Positions 8,833-19,980 of a stretch of DNA of 20,121 bases are shown piece after piece. Every line of letters starts with the position of its first letter. Within the stretch, counting starts at the first letter, position 1. Both the position numbers and the translations under genes were made by a program. Below the pieces are notes generated by a model. That model was not told the origin of the DNA and made no database searches. It worked only from the letters and a program-made list of their open reading frames with translations. The stretch is from a virus. The stretch spans positions 1-20,121 of the IMG/VR virus record IMGVR_UViG_3300032282_001141; one strand, 5' to 3'.

Positions 8833-9002
8833 GCGGTCACCTCCCGCAAATCTACGGTCTCTTCGTCGTACCGCTCGCGGTCGCCGGGGTCGGTCACGTC
8901 GAACACCTCGTGCGCCTCAATATAGGCTGCGTCTTCGTCGTCGGCTTGCACGCGAATCGTTTTTACAACGGTCGCCCGTATCGTCACGTCGTAAGTTTTC
9001 AT
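8829..9002 (-). CDS. Small beta-rich protein, DpnD/PcfM-like pattern
   Basis: The 57-residue protein starts MKTYDVTIRATVVKTIRVQADDED, followed by a helix (AAYIEAHEVFDV) and an acidic end. Strand-strand-helix with V-x-A-DDEDAA is typical of small phage and plasmid proteins such as the DpnD/PcfM group; the resemblance is by eye. The function is unknown. Both ends are ATGA overlaps. Confidence 0.65.
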   Translation of the reverse strand: MKTYDVTIRATVVKTIRVQADDEDAAYIEAHEVFDVTDPGDRERYDEETVDLREVTA

Positions 9003-9463
9003 GCGGCCACCTGCGCGGTGCTATTGGTCACGACAAAGGCAACGGTGCGGCCTTTTTTATCGCCTACCCGAGAGATATTGAACCCTATCGCTAAAGCGAC
9101 TGATAACATCGTCTGAACACCGCACGCACCGTCGAGCGATATGCGCCCGGTGTCATCGTTTCGCGTCATACCGTAAAAATACGCAGGGTCGGGACGGCCG
9201 AAAGGCAGGGACGAGCTAGGGACGCGGTGCGACTTATGACCGCCGGCCTTGCTGTAATAACTGCCCGCCTTGTCACCAATTGCGCGCAGCCGATCTTGAT
9301 GGGCATCGGTTAGCCATTGAGCTAACACCGTGCCGAGCATATCGTAACCGCCGCCGGACGTCCGATAACGTTTTCCGGTGGCCGTATCGTCAAGTCGGCA
9401 GATGTTCCACCCGTAAGTATTTACACCGCGCGACGTAGACCACGAAAGCATAAGAGTTTGCAT
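8999..9463 (-). CDS. Conserved-type phage protein of unknown function (SWSTSRG...SLDGACG)
   Basis: The 154-residue protein starts MQTLMLSWSTSRGVNTYGWN. Its distinctive features are WSTSRGVNTYGWNICRL, RYRTSGGGYDMLGTVLAQWL and a C-terminal SLDGACGVQTMLSVALAIGF. I have a sense of this combination recurring in phages as an uncharacterised family, with no known activity. It probably has a compact fold with strands first and a helix last. ATG 9463 is chosen over in-frame ATGs at 9613 and 9499, because those lie in the hairpin element or the clamp gene; CGGAG lies upstream. It follows the clamp-like gene after hairpin element A and leads the run of overlapping genes. Confidence 0.78.
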   Translation of the reverse strand: MQTLMLSWSTSRGVNTYGWNICRLDDTATGKRYRTSGGGYDMLGTVLAQWLTDAHQDRLRAIGDKAGSYYSKAGGHKSHRVPSSSLPFGRPDPAYFYGMTRNDDTGRISLDGACGVQTMLSVALAIGFNISRVGDKKGRTVAFVVTNSTAQVAA

Positions 9464-9480
9464 TGTCTTAACTCCGATAA

Positions 9481-9540
9481 GGTGCCCAGTGCACCCCATA
9501 GCACCCTCGAAGGAAGGTGCTACAGGCTGCGAACGGGTTA
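9481..9540 (-). repeat. Intercistronic two-hairpin element, copy A
   Basis: This 60-base element spans from the stop codon of the clamp-like gene to just before the next ribosome site. It aligns without gaps to 10192-10251 (offset 711; 40 of 60 bases identical by hand count). The main stem is TAGCACC (9499-9505) with GGTGCTA (9516-9522) and a 10-base loop. The minor stem is GGTGC (9481-9485) with GCACC (9491-9495) and a 5-base loop. Stem changes between copies are compensatory while the main loop differs. There is no U-tract. Confidence 0.8.
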
Positions 9541-10170
9541 GGCTGCGGCAGCAGTAGCAGTCGGCGCAAAGTCGGCCCAAGCGGGCACGTCTACGGACGT
9601 TATGCGGTCGCATCGCATCGGCATAATTACGCCTACCGCGTCACCCGTCAGCATGACCCGAGCGGCCGCACCGTCGCCATTTTCGCCGCCATTGTGAGCG
9701 ATAGCGGGCGAGTATTTCGACCCCAACAGTTTATTAATTTTCCCAAATGCGGCGACAAGATCGGCATCAAATTGCGACACCAGGCCCGACACAGTGTGCG
9801 GGATGACTCTCCGCCACTCGGGAAAACGGCCCTCGACGAGTTTAGTAGTTGTCGTGCTACCCCATGCGCCGATCGTCAACGACTGAGCGGTCGCGTCGAT
9901 CGACAAGGTAACGTGTCCGTTTTTAAAGGGAGCTTTTAACTTGTCGAGCGCATCGCGAGCAATAATGTATTGCCCAGGCACAAGCGGCGACTCGTCACCT
10001 TCGGCACGCTCAAGCGGCAGTGCGAGCAGCATATGCCCATCAGTGGCGACGGCGACCGCATCAGTGCCGCGCACGTCAATACAAATGCCGTTTAGGTAGT
10101 AACGCACGTCGTTCTTCGCGGCAGCGACGAGCAGTGCTTTGATTGAATCGACAGCAATGGAAAATTGCAT
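9538..10170 (-). CDS. Shortened beta-clamp-like protein (DnaN domains II and partial III)
   Basis: This 210-residue protein matches remembered E. coli DnaN in three places: DVRYYLNG (21-28), VATDGHML (41-48, DnaN VATDGHRL) and KLVEGRFPEWRRVIP (DnaN KLVDGRFPDYRRVLP). It then has VGVIMPMR near the end (DnaN YVVMPMR). These fall in domain II and at the end of domain III. Domain I is missing, and domain III is only about half its usual size; DnaN has about 366 residues. The kept motifs contain the pocket that binds clamp-binding peptides of polymerases and partners. It may form a ring of a different order, act with host clamp, or capture host clamp-binding proteins. A 24-residue alanine-rich tail follows MPMR. 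ATG 10170 has TCGGAG upstream, and hairpin elements lie on both sides. Confidence 0.85.
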   Translation of the reverse strand: MQFSIAVDSIKALLVAAAKNDVRYYLNGICIDVRGTDAVAVATDGHMLLALPLERAEGDESPLVPGQYIIARDALDKLKAPFKNGHVTLSIDATAQSLTIGAWGSTTTTKLVEGRFPEWRRVIPHTVSGLVSQFDADLVAAFGKINKLLGSKYSPAIAHNGGENGDGAAARVMLTGDAVGVIMPMRCDRITSVDVPAWADFAPTATAAAA

Positions 10171-10191
10171 AACATGGTTCTCCGATTAAAT

Positions 10192-10251
10192 GATGCCCAA
10201 CGCATCCCATAGCCAACGGTCACCCATTGGCTACAGGATACGAACGGATTA
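10192..10251 (-). repeat. Intercistronic two-hairpin element, copy B
   Basis: This second copy of the element begins with the stop codon of the 73-residue gene and ends before the ribosome site of the clamp-like gene. The main stem is TAGCCAA (10210-10216) with TTGGCTA (10227-10233), again with a 10-base loop. The minor stem is GATGC (10192-10196) with GCATC (10202-10206). Relative to copy A, four base pairs change on both sides and keep pairing. Unpaired blocks such as CGAACGG and CTACAGG are conserved. Confidence 0.8.
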
Positions 10252-10470
10252 AGCGTCTAAAGTCGTAAAATACTCAGAAGAATCGAACGATAAGCAGACT
10301 GGAACTTGTGACACCGAAAGACGTTTCGGAATTTCAACGTGCGGCGGGTCTGATCGCTCGGCATCAGCAGCCCAGGCTTCAAGCTGAGCGGAATTAATCG
10401 GCGGGTGGGTGCAATTGTCGCGTAGCCAATCCTGCAGCCTTGTTATGCCTTTTTCGTTGAGCGTGTTCAT
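10249..10470 (-). CDS. Hypothetical phage protein
   Basis: The 73-residue protein starts MNTLNEKGITRLQDWLRDN and has no recognised domain. A helical first half (RLQDWLRDNC, NSAQLEAWAADAERSD) is followed by a strand-rich second half (VEIPKRLSVSQVPVCLSF). ATCGGAGAACC lies just before the ATG, the same ribosome-site cassette as before the clamp-like gene. Its stop codon is the first base triplet of element B. Confidence 0.7.
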   Translation of the reverse strand: MNTLNEKGITRLQDWLRDNCTHPPINSAQLEAWAADAERSDPPHVEIPKRLSVSQVPVCLSFDSSEYFTTLDA

Positions 10471-10484
10471 GCATGGTTCTCCGA

Positions 10485-10589
10485 TTATTTAGCGTTGAAG
10501 TATTCGACGATGGCAGCCACAACGGATAGTGCTGCAAACGCCAAGAACGGAAGAAAGAAGCCAGAAAAGAGTGCGACTAGGTATTCCAT
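10485..10589 (-). CDS. Small membrane protein (34 residues)
   Basis: ATG 10589 shares a base with the preceding stop (TAATG). The product, starting MEYLVALFSGFFLPFLAFAA, is a single hydrophobic helix (about 4-28) with a short end VEYFNAK. It is likely an inner-membrane peptide of unknown role. Coupled start and clear hydrophobicity support it; the small size limits certainty. Confidence 0.6.
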   Translation of the reverse strand: MEYLVALFSGFFLPFLAFAALSVVAAIVEYFNAK

Positions 10590-10786: not shown

Positions 10787-10818
10787 TGTTTTCTCCGGTT
10801 AGTTATTCAACGAAACTA

Positions 10819-10848
10819 ACAATAGCACAACGCAATAGGTTGCAACAA
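10819..10848 (-). promoter_or_regulatory. Leftward promoter of the mini-clamp operon
   Basis: Read on the minus strand: TTGTTG (10848-10843), 18 bases, then TATTGT (10824-10819), preceded by TGC to form an extended -10. The start would be near 10812, giving a leader of about 25 bases with CCGGAG. The palindrome GTTGCAAC (10839-10846) overlaps the -35 and could be an operator. Confidence 0.5.
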
Positions 10849-11045
10849 GTATTGCTGCACCTGCCCGGCATGCGGACGATTTGTTGTAGGCTGATACGGA
10901 AACAGACCACCACGAACATACAACAATGACAACACTTTGCAGCAATCCATGTTGTGACGTGCTCAAGCGTAGTAGGTTGTGTAAACGGTGGCATGATCGA
11001 GCGGCAACGCTTAAGTGACTGAAAATCACAACTAAAAGTGCGGCG

Positions 11046-11054
11046 TGGTATAAA
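11046..11054 (+). promoter_or_regulatory. Rightward promoter, extended -10 type
   Basis: TGGTATAAA fits the TGn-TATAAT extended -10 form. The -35 at 17 bases is poor (TCACAA), as is usual for this type. Transcription would start near 11061 and run toward the terminase genes across the repeat region. Together with the leftward promoter near 10830 it makes 10787-11072 a divergent control region. Confidence 0.5.
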
Positions 11055-11072
11055 AAGTAGGGTGTCTAATAG

Positions 11073-11321
11073 ATGGATAAAAAAAGGCAAGAATATAGTG
11101 ATATAGACACACTCTTAGAACGACTTGAAACGCACCATACTTTTCCTACCACACTGCAACATAATTGCCAAGTTATCCACAGACGTTCACTGCGTGGTCA
11201 TGTTGCACCCGCACAACTTGTTGCGTTTACGCCACACTTAGCGCACTGTTGCGTAGAAACAACATCACGCTTGCGTGTTGCGTGCAGGCAACTGTTGCGT
11301 GAAAACGACAGGGGGGGGTAG
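11073..11321 (+). CDS. Doubtful open frame across the repeat region (82 residues)
   Basis: The frame starts MDKKRQEYSDIDTLLERLE, which looks protein-like, just downstream of the extended -10 promoter. From about residue 26 onward the composition turns rich in His, Cys and Arg with no pattern, and the frame runs through the TGTTGCGT repeats, the DnaA box and the G-run. No good ribosome site is present (TAGGG, 11 bases away). It may be a non-coding control region, or a short gene whose end is accidental. Confidence 0.25.
   Translation: MDKKRQEYSDIDTLLERLETHHTFPTTLQHNCQVIHRRSLRGHVAPAQLVAFTPHLAHCCVETTSRLRVACRQLLRENDRGG
11155..11300. repeat. Iteron-like TGTTGCGT / GTTGC repeats
   Basis: TGTTGCGT occurs four times in direct orientation, at 11219, 11247, 11276 and 11293. 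The related TGTTGCA is at 11201, and its inverse TGCAACA at 11155. GCAAC-T-GTTGC (11288-11298) is a palindrome. Seven GTTGC/GCAAC words fall within 146 bases, where well under one is expected by chance at equal base use. Spacings of the last five GTTGC words are 18, 28, 29 and 17 bases. This resembles binding sites of a replication initiator or regulator. Confidence 0.6.
11173..11181 (+). promoter_or_regulatory. Consensus DnaA box
   Basis: TTATCCACA at 11173-11181 is the perfect high-affinity DnaA box. It lies at the edge of the TGTTGCGT repeats in a gene-poor region. A 9-base match can arise by chance in 20 kb (roughly one in seven on both strands), but its place beside iteron-like repeats makes an origin role more likely. 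Confidence 0.5.
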
Positions 11322-11331
11322 GGCCGACGGG
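11311..11331 (+). other. G8 run and possible G-quadruplex
   Basis: Eight G residues (11311-11318) are followed by TA, GGG, CCGAC and GGG, so four G-tracts fall within 21 bases. This could fold as a quadruplex on the rightward strand or in RNA. A homopolymer of eight is also a place where length may vary or be misread. It lies between the repeats and the small terminase gene. Confidence 0.35.
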
Positions 11332-16761: not shown

Positions 16762-19700
16762 ATGGCCGGGACTAAAATCTCTGACTTACCGTCAGCGAGT
16801 GCGCTTACTGGCGCAGAACTCGTCCCGGTAGTCCAAAGCGATGTTACGAAGAAAACAACCGTTTCGGACATCCTTACCTCGGCAGGTGCCGGTACGGTTA
16901 CGTCCGTTAATGTCTCCGGTGGAGCCACGGGCCTTACCGCAACCGGCGGCCCGATCACTACCACTGGTACTATTACGCTTGGTGGAACACTAGATGTTGA
17001 TAACGGCGGTACGGGAGCCACCACGGCTGCTAATGCGCGCACGAATCTCGATGTACCAAGCCGCTCTGGTTCGGGCGCTTCTGGAACGTGGTCGATTGAC
17101 GTTACCGGAAACGCCGGAACCGTCACCAATGGCGTTTATACATCCGGTTCGTATGCCAACCCGTCGTGGATTACGTCGCTCGCCGGTTCCAAAATTACCG
17201 GAAACATTAGTGGTAACGCGGCTGGACTGACCTCCACGTTAAGCACTAACACGGGTGGCACGGGTCAAACGACGTACACAAACGGCCAGCTGCTCATCGG
17301 CAATGCCTCGGGCAGTTTGAGCAAATCCACGCTGACTGCTGGCTCTAACGTCACTATTACCAATGGCGACGGCACAATTACGATTGCCGCGACGAGTGGC
17401 GGCTCCGGTACCGTAACTTCGGTCGACGCTTCGGGCGGTACGACCGGACTGACGTTCTCCGGCGGCCCAATTACATCGAGCGGCACGCTCACGATGGCGG
17501 GCACGCTTGATGCGGATAATGGTGGCACGGGGCAAACCTCGTACACCAATGGTCAGCTCCTCATTGGTAATTCGGCTGGCGGCCTAACCAAAGCCACGTT
17601 GACGGCAGGCTCCGGCATTTCGATTACAAACGGTAACGGGTCGATTACGTTAACCGCAGCGGGTTCGGGCCTTGGTGATGTCACGGGCCCTGCGTCGGCA
17701 ACTGACAATGCTGTTGCTCGATTTGACGGGACAACCGGCAAAATTATTAAAAACACGTCCGATTTTATTATCAACGGTAGCAATAACGTCGGTATTGGCG
17801 GTACAACGTCTTCGGACACCAAAGTCAACATTTCTGGCGTTTTGCCAGTTTCCGCTGCCGGTTATTCGTATGCGTTCGGCAATCGTGGAACGGTTGCGTC
17901 AACGGTTAATAATCCCGCAACCGGCGTGTTGTCTGAACTTAATACGCAAGCATCTGGATTAAGTTATATAGTTGGAACGTATTACCATTTTGCCGCAAAA
18001 AATGGCGCATTAGGATCAAATTCTGTTGTCAACAACCAAGTCGGTTATTGGGCTGAGGACTTTACTTTAGGCCAAGCGGTTTATGGTTATATTTCGTCAG
18101 TCAATGTCGGGGCAAATAAATGGGGATTGTATTTTTCCGGCGATGCTAAAAATTACTTCAAGGGTAATGTTGGCATTGGAAATGGCAACGATAACCCCGG
18201 TAGCGCACTTGATGTAAAAGGCACAATTCGGCTTTCAGGCTCAACTTCTGGTTATGTCGGATTAGCACCGGCTGCAGCGGCAGGATCAACAACTTACACG
18301 TTGCCTTCGGCGGACGGCACCAGCGGCCAAGTCCTTAAAACGGATGGCGCAGGCGCTTTGTCATGGACGAGCGTTGGTGGAACCGGCACGGTTACGTCCG
18401 TTAACGTATCGGGCGGCACGACGGGGTTAACGACATCTGGCGGCCCAGTTACGGGCTCTGGCACGATTACGATTGCCGGTACGCTTGGCACTGCGAACGG
18501 TGGTACCAATAGCACTGCGACCCCGACTGCGGGTGGTGTGGCTTACGGTAACGGCACGGCGCTGCTGTATTCGAGCGTCGGTACGGCAGGGCAATACCTG
18601 CAATCGGCAGGCGCGGGCACGCCGGTTTGGTCAAGCATTTCGTCTGGCGTTGGGTCAACTGCCTATGCAGGTGCATTCCAAGATACGACCACGCAGACCA
18701 TTGCAAGCACAACCATTGCATATCCAATTACGCTGAATACGGATGATTACGTCAACGGCGTAACCCGTGGTTCGCCCACTTCGCGCATCGTTTTTGCGAA
18801 CGCGGGTGTTTACAACATTCAATGGTCGGGACAGTTCCAAAGCACCAGCACGTCGCTTCAAGACGTGCGCGTGTGGATTCGCATCAACGGCACGGATGTT
18901 TCTGGATCAACCGGATACATTTCGGTTCCCAACAGTCACGGCGGTACGGACGGTCACATTGTTGTCGGTTGGAACTACGTTTTAAATCTTTCGGCTGGCG
19001 ATTACGTTGAGTTTGTATGGGCTGCAACGTCTACGGCAGTAACGCTACAAGCATATGCCGCAGGCACGTCCCCAACTTCGCCAACTACCGCAAGCGTCAT
19101 TGTCACGGCAAATCAGCTAACGCAGATCGGCATCGGCTATTACGGTTTGTCGTCTGCCTCGTCTGTACTAATCGGCACGGGCAGCAAAACCTTTACGACG
19201 AACCTTAACGCCACTAACACGGCGTTTACGGTTGGCTCGCGGGTGCGTGTGGCCTATACCACCACCCCGACCAATTTCATGGAAGGAAACATTACCGCCT
19301 TTAGCGGTACATCCATGACGGTAAACGTGGATGTGACGGGCGGCTCTGGTACTTACGCGGCATGGTCGTTTACTTCGGTCGGTTCGGCTGGCGTCACTAG
19401 CATTAGCGGCGGCACAACCGGCCTTACGCCGTCTACGGCCACCACGGGCGCTGTAACGCTTGCTGGTACGCTTGCGGTCGCTAATGGCGGTACGGGATTG
19501 ACTGCAGGCACGAGCGGCGGCGTCCTGTATTACTCAGCAGCCGGCACGCTTGCGTCATCAAGCGCCTTGGCGGCTAATGCCCTTGTAGTCGGTGGCGGCG
19601 CAGGTATAGCGCCCAGTACGGTTACGACCGGCACGGGCGTTGTCACGGCGTTGGGTGTCAATACGGGATCGGCTGGCGCGTTTGTCGTTAACGGCGGCGC

Positions 19701-19980
19701 GCTAGGCACCCCGTCCTCGGGAACTTTGACTAATGCGACCGGTTTGCCGCTTTCCACTGGCATAACCGGCACGTTGGGCATTGCAAACGGCGGTACTGGC
19801 CTCACCAGTACGCCTACGAATGGTCAAATTGATATTGGTAACGGCACGGGTTTTACCCGCACGACGATTACCGCAGGGTCAAACATTACAGTTACGAACG
19901 GTGCGGGCAGTATTACAATCGCCTCAACCGGCGTTTCCACCGGAAAATCAATCGCTATGGCGATGATTTTTGGATTTTAA
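16762..19980 (+). CDS. Large repetitive fibre-like protein with C1q-like head
   Basis: The protein has 1072 residues. The N terminus MAGTKISDLPSASALTGAEL is a typical fibre or spike attachment start. Gly/Thr/Ser-rich modules follow, each opening GTVTSV(N/D)-SGG-TGLT and moving through GGP(I/V)T, GT(L/I)T, then NGGTG; copies start near residues 43, 215 and 542, with a degenerate one near 874. Residues about 335-510 (NVGIGGTTSS... to SALDVKGTIRLSG) are a different, more A/T-rich segment. A C1q/TNF-like jelly roll spans about 635-790 (AYAGAFQDTTTQTIAS...) and another beta module 793-870. It ends GKSIAMAMIFGF with no S74 chaperone. It likely contributes to the virion fibre and receptor contact. 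GAGGTGAG precedes the ATG. Confidence 0.88.
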   Translation: MAGTKISDLPSASALTGAELVPVVQSDVTKKTTVSDILTSAGAGTVTSVNVSGGATGLTATGGPITTTGTITLGGTLDVDNGGTGATTAANARTNLDVPSRSGSGASGTWSIDVTGNAGTVTNGVYTSGSYANPSWITSLAGSKITGNISGNAAGLTSTLSTNTGGTGQTTYTNGQLLIGNASGSLSKSTLTAGSNVTITNGDGTITIAATSGGSGTVTSVDASGGTTGLTFSGGPITSSGTLTMAGTLDADNGGTGQTSYTNGQLLIGNSAGGLTKATLTAGSGISITNGNGSITLTAAGSGLGDVTGPASATDNAVARFDGTTGKIIKNTSDFIINGSNNVGIGGTTSSDTKVNISGVLPVSAAGYSYAFGNRGTVASTVNNPATGVLSELNTQASGLSYIVGTYYHFAAKNGALGSNSVVNNQVGYWAEDFTLGQAVYGYISSVNVGANKWGLYFSGDAKNYFKGNVGIGNGNDNPGSALDVKGTIRLSGSTSGYVGLAPAAAAGSTTYTLPSADGTSGQVLKTDGAGALSWTSVGGTGTVTSVNVSGGTTGLTTSGGPVTGSGTITIAGTLGTANGGTNSTATPTAGGVAYGNGTALLYSSVGTAGQYLQSAGAGTPVWSSISSGVGSTAYAGAFQDTTTQTIASTTIAYPITLNTDDYVNGVTRGSPTSRIVFANAGVYNIQWSGQFQSTSTSLQDVRVWIRINGTDVSGSTGYISVPNSHGGTDGHIVVGWNYVLNLSAGDYVEFVWAATSTAVTLQAYAAGTSPTSPTTASVIVTANQLTQIGIGYYGLSSASSVLIGTGSKTFTTNLNATNTAFTVGSRVRVAYTTTPTNFMEGNITAFSGTSMTVNVDVTGGSGTYAAWSFTSVGSAGVTSISGGTTGLTPSTATTGAVTLAGTLAVANGGTGLTAGTSGGVLYYSAAGTLASSSALAANALVVGGGAGIAPSTVTTGTGVVTALGVNTGSAGAFVVNGGALGTPSSGTLTNATGLPLSTGITGTLGIANGGTGLTSTPTNGQIDIGNGTGFTRTTITAGSNITVTNGAGSITIASTGVSTGKSIAMAMIFGF

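Follow-up and report, generated by a model that had tools for sequence, protein, structure and literature searches.

A stop-codon pseudoknot class at phage gene junctions, recognised by shape

Covariation and controlled searches show that an RNA element found twice in a 20,121-nt stretch of viral DNA (IMG/VR record IMGVR_UViG_3300032282_001141, positions 1 to 20,121; the window) belongs to a class of pseudoknots at phage gene junctions. In transcript order, the 5′ strand of helix P1 lies at or over the stop codon of the upstream gene and is followed by a short linker and the hairpin P2; then come the 5′ strand of P3, the 3′ strand of P1, which forms the P3 loop, and the 3′ strand of P3. Downstream of P3 a G-poor spacer leads to the ribosome site and the start codon. 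All three helices can change in sequence, and the demands on the individual letters are loose. A sequence-only reading of the window had pointed to a duplicated intercistronic two-hairpin element; this observation is confirmed as real and proves to be larger than described.

Results

Two copies in the window

The copies A and B flank a clamp-like gene (Table 1). The genes around both are encoded on the minus strand, and the transcript runs from 9540 to 9481 through copy A and from 10251 to 10192 through copy B. Copy A begins with the TAA of the clamp gene and stops short of the GGAG that serves ORF 8999-9463; copy B begins with the TAA that closes ORF 10249-10470 and stops short of the GGAG of the clamp ORF 9538-10170. 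Coordinates, gene boundaries and the gapless alignment had been given correctly before; 40 of the 60 positions are identical. Of the compensatory changes claimed earlier, the one in the minor stem stands (G-C in A, A-U in B, pairing kept), and for the main stem the three pairs have to be replaced by five, which were read from the alignment (A-U/C-G, C-G/A-U, C-G/A-U, U-A/G-C and C-G/G-C, A versus B).

On the coding strand both copies fold more stably than dinucleotide shuffles (z −4.84 for A and −6.98 for B; none of 200 shuffles equal), also with 10-20 nt of extra flank (z −3.31 and −4.96; 1 and 0 of 200 shuffles equal). The fold energies amount to −34.2 and −36.1 kcal/mol, compared with −25.5 and −19.5 kcal/mol on the opposite strand. 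The window's own P1 is weak, with three contiguous pairs followed by what appears by eye to be a pyrimidine mismatch and one further pair. No terminator-like site was found in 9400-10520 (mean of 1.2 in shuffles), in accordance with the earlier statement that the element is not a terminator.

Table 1. Positions of the element, its parts and neighbouring features in the window and in phage contig G030.
Feature	Positions	Strand	Remark
Clamp-like gene, 210 aa	9538..10170	-	Pfam DNA_pol3_beta_2, E 6.1e-12; PHROG 947
Element copy A	9481..9540	-	between clamp gene and ORF 8999-9463
Copy A, TAA stop codon of clamp gene	9538..9540	-	first bases of element
Copy A, P1 5′ strand CCGUU	9532..9536	-	weak P1; beside, not over, stop codon
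Copy A, P2 hairpin CC...GG	9495..9526	-	
Copy A, P3 5′ strand GUGC	9491..9494	-	
Copy A, P1 3′ strand ACUGG = P3 loop	9486..9490	-	
Copy A, P3 3′ strand GCAC	9482..9485	-	
GGAG ribosome site of ORF 8999-9463	9472..9475	-	ATG at 9461-9463
Element copy B	10192..10251	-	between ORF 10249-10470 and clamp gene
Copy B, TAA stop codon of ORF 10249-10470	10249..10251	-	
Copy B, P1 5′ strand CCGUU	10243..10247	-	weak P1
Copy B, P2 hairpin CC...GG	10206..10237	-	
Copy B, P3 5′ strand AUGC	10202..10205	-	
Copy B, P1 3′ strand GUUGG = P3 loop	10197..10201	-	
Copy B, P3 3′ strand GCAU	10193..10196	-	
GGAG ribosome site of clamp gene	10180..10183	-	ATG at 10168-10170
Copies in contig G030	83917, 85272, 86640, 87121, 88612, 89216, 92450, 93607		

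Pseudoknot fold and covariation

A pattern search for the main stem returned 34 viral contigs. A looser pattern gave at least 120 matches, a large part of which forms a separate enterobacterial prophage family with a GAAA loop that was excluded from the element counts. Removal of 10 nested or doubtful cases from 63 distinct pattern matches left 53 sequences; 49 of them (48 distinct) make up alignment A2, with L065, two L027 copies and one L029 copy omitted. The named stems are paired in 95.0% of the A2 cells, compared with 82.6% after shuffling, and double-changed cells number 112 versus 37.5. Base pairs in which both partners change number 7 versus 5.6, which is not unusual, 69 of 500 shuffles being as high. 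A corrected G-test over 1596 column pairs places seven predicted pairs among the eight top ranks, five of them in P2, one in P3 and one in P1, and the remaining P1 pairs occupy ranks 11, 18, 217, 1187 and 1448.

P1 was not part of the search pattern. At least four contiguous pairs between the strand before P2 and the P3 loop occur in 30 of the 44 distinct sequences (mean of 12.7 and maximum of 22 in 2000 shuffles; such counts are inexact probabilities here because the sequences are related), as in GACAUU/AAUGUC, AACAGU/ACUGUU, AAAGU/ACUUU and GAUAGC/GCUAUU. Since the second hairpin of the relatives has a loop that base-pairs with the strand at the stop codon, the two hairpins proposed from the window alone are both present but form parts of a pseudoknot. 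P2, counted alone, comprises 8-17 pairs with a median of 12 among 93 distinct sequences, none reaching 18. A2 shows little or no variation in the letters UAGC/GCUA, GG and UGC/GCA, a uniformity that is partly built in because most loci were chosen by pattern; the cross-searches, loop control and shape scan described below correct this bias only in part.

Reverse searches and freedom of sequence

With P1 and P3 fixed and P2 left free, 74 viral contigs were found (54 distinct sequences in the loci examined), and a second P1/P1′ pair gave 19 contigs with 15 distinct sequences. P2, which had not been searched for, is present with at least 7 of 10 pairs in 47 of the 48 distinct arm pairs from the P1+P3 searches, whereas shuffled arm pairs yield a mean of 14.9 and a maximum of 25. 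A non-complementary control loop (RTAC instead of RATC) returned 2 contigs versus the 74 with the complementary loop, and both have just 8-9 open codons before the TGA and only 4-5 of 10 P2 pairs. The compensatory P1 pair TGAGT/RCTC was found in 7 contigs, with P2 in six and an open frame of at least 40 codons before the TGA in four; L339 and L340 among them are identical. L298 from the P1+P3 search and L342 from the TGAGT/RCTC search look like chance matches.

A shape-only scan covered 4.7 Mb of strands in the loci examined. In its strict form (five P1, five P3 and at least nine P2 pairs) it gave 46 matches outside every pattern; in 16 cases the match coincides with the stop of an open frame of at least 40 codons. 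Such stops make up 8.2% of positions as background (p 3.5e-7 for 16 of 46). Some of these 16 (e.g. L009, L259, L263, L304 and L048) look like chance. The loose form (P3 of 4-5 pairs, P2 of at least 7), to which the comparison with shuffles is confined, gave 531 matches versus 400 and thus no separation, so that conclusions draw on the strict form alone.

Drift of the letters is also seen within single phages. The 95-kb phage contig G030 holds eight copies within 10 kb (Table 1), which differ in their P1, P2 and P3 letters and include the P3 helices GCUUC/GAAGC, CGGGC/GCCCG and ACUCC/GGAGU. Model matches further indicate that G016 holds four copies and G013 three, the latter with a P3 that is poor by eye. 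An obligatory role of UAGC/GCUA and UGC/GCA was discarded as a bias of the search patterns, since freer searches yield members without these letters. Cross-searches from P1 and P2, pairing counts, covariation and the loop control strongly support the proposed selection on RNA structure. Positions that vary without pairing in homologous phages would have spoken against it; pairing holds across the relatives.

Position between genes

The element sits between co-directional genes. In a set of 52 elements (A2, L065, one L027 copy and the L029 copy), for which a script selected the most suitable stop and start inside preset limits, a stop codon is located 6-24 nt upstream of P2 in all 52, at a distance of 9 nt in 19, 11 nt in 11 and 10 nt in 7 (37 of 52 at 9-11 nt). 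The frame closed by that stop comprises at least 40 aa in 47 cases, and a same-strand start codon follows 14-55 nt downstream in every case. Similarly, in 47 of the 54 sequences of the P1+P3 set a frame of at least 37 codons ends at the TGA with which P1 starts; the seven exceptions have another stop 4-5 nt upstream (L012, L260), reach the contig end (L276, L289) or show short frames (L252, L280, L298).

Among the 62 elements that passed both the stop and the start filter, the start codon lies in any frame relative to the stop (23/20/19), at a median of 23 nt from P3 (range 13-33), and the spacer after P3 consists of 45% A, 26% C, 25% T and 5% G. The stop-to-start distance is 63-90 nt among the 60 elements listed. 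One lineage, represented by L008, L009, L013, L016, L019 and relatives, has an additional small hairpin (GCCCUUCGGGG-like) in the stretch from P3 to the ribosome site. The element joins differing gene pairs and clusters in operons of small genes. The clamp gene is one flanking gene; others we take, by eye, to encode ArdC-like, DUF932-like, GP88-like and SprT-like proteins.

Carriers

A protein search gave five relatives of the clamp. L002 (91% identical) has the element, and no model match was found in the contigs of L003-L006 (clamps 28-53% identical); at its clamp junctions L003 shows just a short spacer and a ribosome site. The element is thus not bound to the clamp gene. Among PHROG families, phrog_3007 matches the clamp-like protein best (E 5.4e-34). 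It carries the label 'RusA-like Holliday junction resolvase', which may be wrong given that Pfam and PHROG 947 indicate a sliding clamp.

With its P22-type portal and terminase, the window phage is a tailed phage. Short repeats around GTTGC/GCAAC are found in 10800-11330, where the early genes, read leftward, are separated from the packaging genes, read rightward; they possibly mark a replication origin or divergent promoter region. A 1072-aa ORF on the plus strand (16762-19980) with repeated GTVTSVNVSGGTTGLT-like units is, by eye, probably a tail fibre.

Apparently, the element also occurs in filamentous phages. Zot was found in 12 of 50 element contigs; 5 of 14 control genomes match too, so Zot alone proves nothing. 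The Burkholderiaceae genome behind L046 carries two copies flanking a 100-aa ORF, followed by ORFs that by eye are coat-like and Zot-like. A CAGCGUUGUGAAACGUCG-like arm at the tip of P2 is shared by the Zot-bearing contigs L260, L264, L274 and L297 and by G046:C41:58863 from the L046 genome; elsewhere the tips vary.

The bacterial chromosomes searched rarely carry the element. An exact-pattern scan of bacterial genomes gave 23 matches, among which by eye L046 alone is clearly real and L058 doubtful. At E ≤ 1e-4 the model matched 2 of 399 genomes of one bacterial order, one being that of L046 itself, and 1 of 369 genomes of one class (G144, also in the order set); these searches are low in sensitivity because just 13-15 candidates were scored per genome. 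Among named phages, BLAST with the window region gave one match (7%), the portal-nearest phages checked (DSL-LC05, ctNMl277 and Rhodoferax P26218) had no model match, and queries from three other members led to few or no convincing cases.

A likely relative in KP34-type phages

KP34-type Autographiviridae carry a repeat that is probably related to the element. At E ≤ 10, 264 records were matched by a 65-nt query, 204 of them over at least 80% of its length. Model R1 or part of it gave weak matches in 7 of 10 named records, the other three being portal relatives of the window phage, and the KP34-type scores are low (12-25 bits). Homology of the KP34-type repeat with the element is likely, not proven. 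Like the element, the repeat is intergenic, and its CCUAUAGC...GCUAUG hairpin resembles P2. As judged by eye, Minorna, SFN6B, J8-65 and JKT5 appear to have an outer stem that includes the stop codon. Unlike the element, the repeat mostly lacks P3 by eye and hence the pseudoknot; P3 is possible in KP34 copy 2509 (AUGC/GCGU) and absent in Minorna and J8-65, both as judged by eye. Eriksson et al. put the repeat forward as a phage promoter, with a nick site as another possibility (PMC4411677), and Lu et al. describe a fragment with the KP34 repeat from which KP34 RNA polymerase made no transcript (PMC6834552). While the promoter reading failed, an RNA reading is now available for the repeat of about two hundred sequenced KP34-type phages.

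Comparison with known families

Rfam 15 at the gathering threshold gave no match in the window, in 30 element-bearing loci or in L003; below threshold two matches at chance level appeared (E 1.1 and 2.2). Listings and abstract openings of the literature covered, chiefly outside subscription journals, contained no such RNA class. Since every known kind with which it was compared differs from the element in a defining trait, it is placed in a structural class of its own, though its function could turn out to be a familiar one.

An intrinsic terminator would have a GC-rich stem followed by a U tract, and no such site is present in 9400-10520. Intercistronic RNase III sites of T7 are likewise about 60 nt long, lie between cistrons and contain a stem with an internal loop. 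They require about two turns of duplex (at least 18-20 pairs), whereas P2 with its 8-17 pairs is too short in most members and the element adds a pseudoknot and a stop codon within the fold. REP-type repeats have a conserved sequence; here all three helices vary, also within one phage. A riboswitch or protein operator with an invariant core is contradicted by members without UAGC, UGC or GG, with weakly conserved letters possible. The coupling pseudoknots of rpmI-rplT and plasmid repZ hide or present a ribosome site. They are similarly located at a gene junction before the start codon, but in the element the ribosome site is unpaired, after P3 and outside the fold (9472-9475 and 10180-10183 in the window), and the fold includes or adjoins the stop codon. 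For a recoding pseudoknot the downstream frame would have to be fixed, in contrast to the observed distribution. Readthrough, terminator and promoter readings were thus rejected on the basis of the free frames, the missing terminator site and the transcript-less KP34 fragment.

Two further structures also follow stop codons. The galE-galT hairpin of E. coli is structured RNA after a stop codon within an operon; it is simple, has no pseudoknot and is located about 130 nt past the stop, which remains outside the fold (PMC9239205). The enterobacterial prophage element (TGACGCAACTGATAGCC... GAAA loop) has P2-like and P3-like hairpins but differs by its near-invariant sequence and a tetraloop instead of the P1 pairing. 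It comprises 41 nt (CTGATAGCCAGTTATGAGCTGGCTATTGGGTGC GAAA GCAC) and was seen in L078, L083, L180 and about 60 other loci, after stops of differing upstream sequences (63 distinct flank combinations), and in 40 of 5426 E. coli genomes; by eye, TGACG before it and CGTCA/CGTTA after it could pair.

Discussion

From fold and position we infer, with a confidence slightly short of an even chance, that the element acts as a translational insulator that refolds over the stop codon. A ribosome terminating there would have to open P1 and, judging from the spacing, should reach just the foot of P2, whose start is presumably close to the mRNA entry of the ribosome. Upon its departure P1 would close over the stop codon and complete the pseudoknot, which would keep post-termination ribosomes from the next start; the downstream ribosome site, left in a constant unstructured spacer, would let each cistron initiate independently. 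If only shape and position matter, the sequence could therefore drift freely. Coupling correlates negatively with structure directly after the upstream stop (PMC12548453), and reinitiation is almost abolished at stop-start gaps of about 20 nt (PMC10666635). With a gap of 60-90 nt, reinitiation should be lost even in unfolded RNA, so that the pseudoknot seems excessive for insulation. Also counting against insulation are the weak P1 of the window beside the stop codon, the KP34-type relatives mostly without P3, the L003 clamp junctions, which lack the element, and a position that equally suits protection of a 3′ end.

The functions listed in the sequence-only reading (processing, stability or translation control) still form the right list, with translation insulation or 3′-end protection fitting best. 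The chief rival is a role in mRNA stability or processing, in which the fold would block 3′→5′ exonucleases after the stop and so provide every upstream cistron with a stable 3′ end, or would mark an endonuclease site (e.g. for RNase III) at which the operon is cut; it is rather unlikely in our estimation. The clustering in operons of small genes and the similar size of the T7 intercistronic RNase III hairpins are in favour of it, whereas P2 is short against the classical limit of that enzyme. Stability finds a parallel in the E. coli gal operon, where a junction hairpin halts exonucleases that digest 3′→5′ and defines the 3′ end of galE (PMC9239205). A 3′ shield would be expected at operon ends too, while all 52 elements have a downstream start (the script sought such starts only), and overlap of P1 with the stop codon would be unnecessary for either variant.

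Positive translational coupling, with a ribosome that opens P1 and thereby frees P3 or the spacer for the next initiation, appears improbable. The stop codon in or beside P1 would suit it, and rpmI-rplT is coupled at +52 nt through unfolding (PMC12548453); nothing obvious is freed by the opening of P1, however, because the ribosome site is outside the fold in the G-poor spacer. Still less credit can be given to an operator for a ligand or for a phage or host RNA-binding protein, the latter having been suggested for the window. The letters nearly invariant in A2 would agree with it but were fixed by the search patterns; pattern-free and P1+P3 searches yield members without them, and P1, P2 and P3 can all change with the fold kept, even within one phage. 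A DNA-level element (promoter, nick site or recombination boundary) is very improbable: the joining of differing gene pairs and the proposal in PMC4411677 point that way, against which stand the transcript-less KP34 fragment (PMC6834552), the stronger fold on the coding strand and pairing that is kept while the sequence changes.

Returning to insulation, we regard it as possible rather than probable that the stop-codon pseudoknot constitutes an unrecognised architecture, defined by shape and commonly with the stop in the fold, which occurs in two realms (tailed dsDNA and filamentous ssDNA phages), insulates cistrons and senses the clearance of the ribosome. Recognisable by shape across unrelated phages, this class of structured RNA is located where it links RNA folding with translation termination. 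If the element is an insulator, it would illustrate how compact phage operons can express their genes at individual levels without a promoter for each, and would offer a portable part for synthetic operons.
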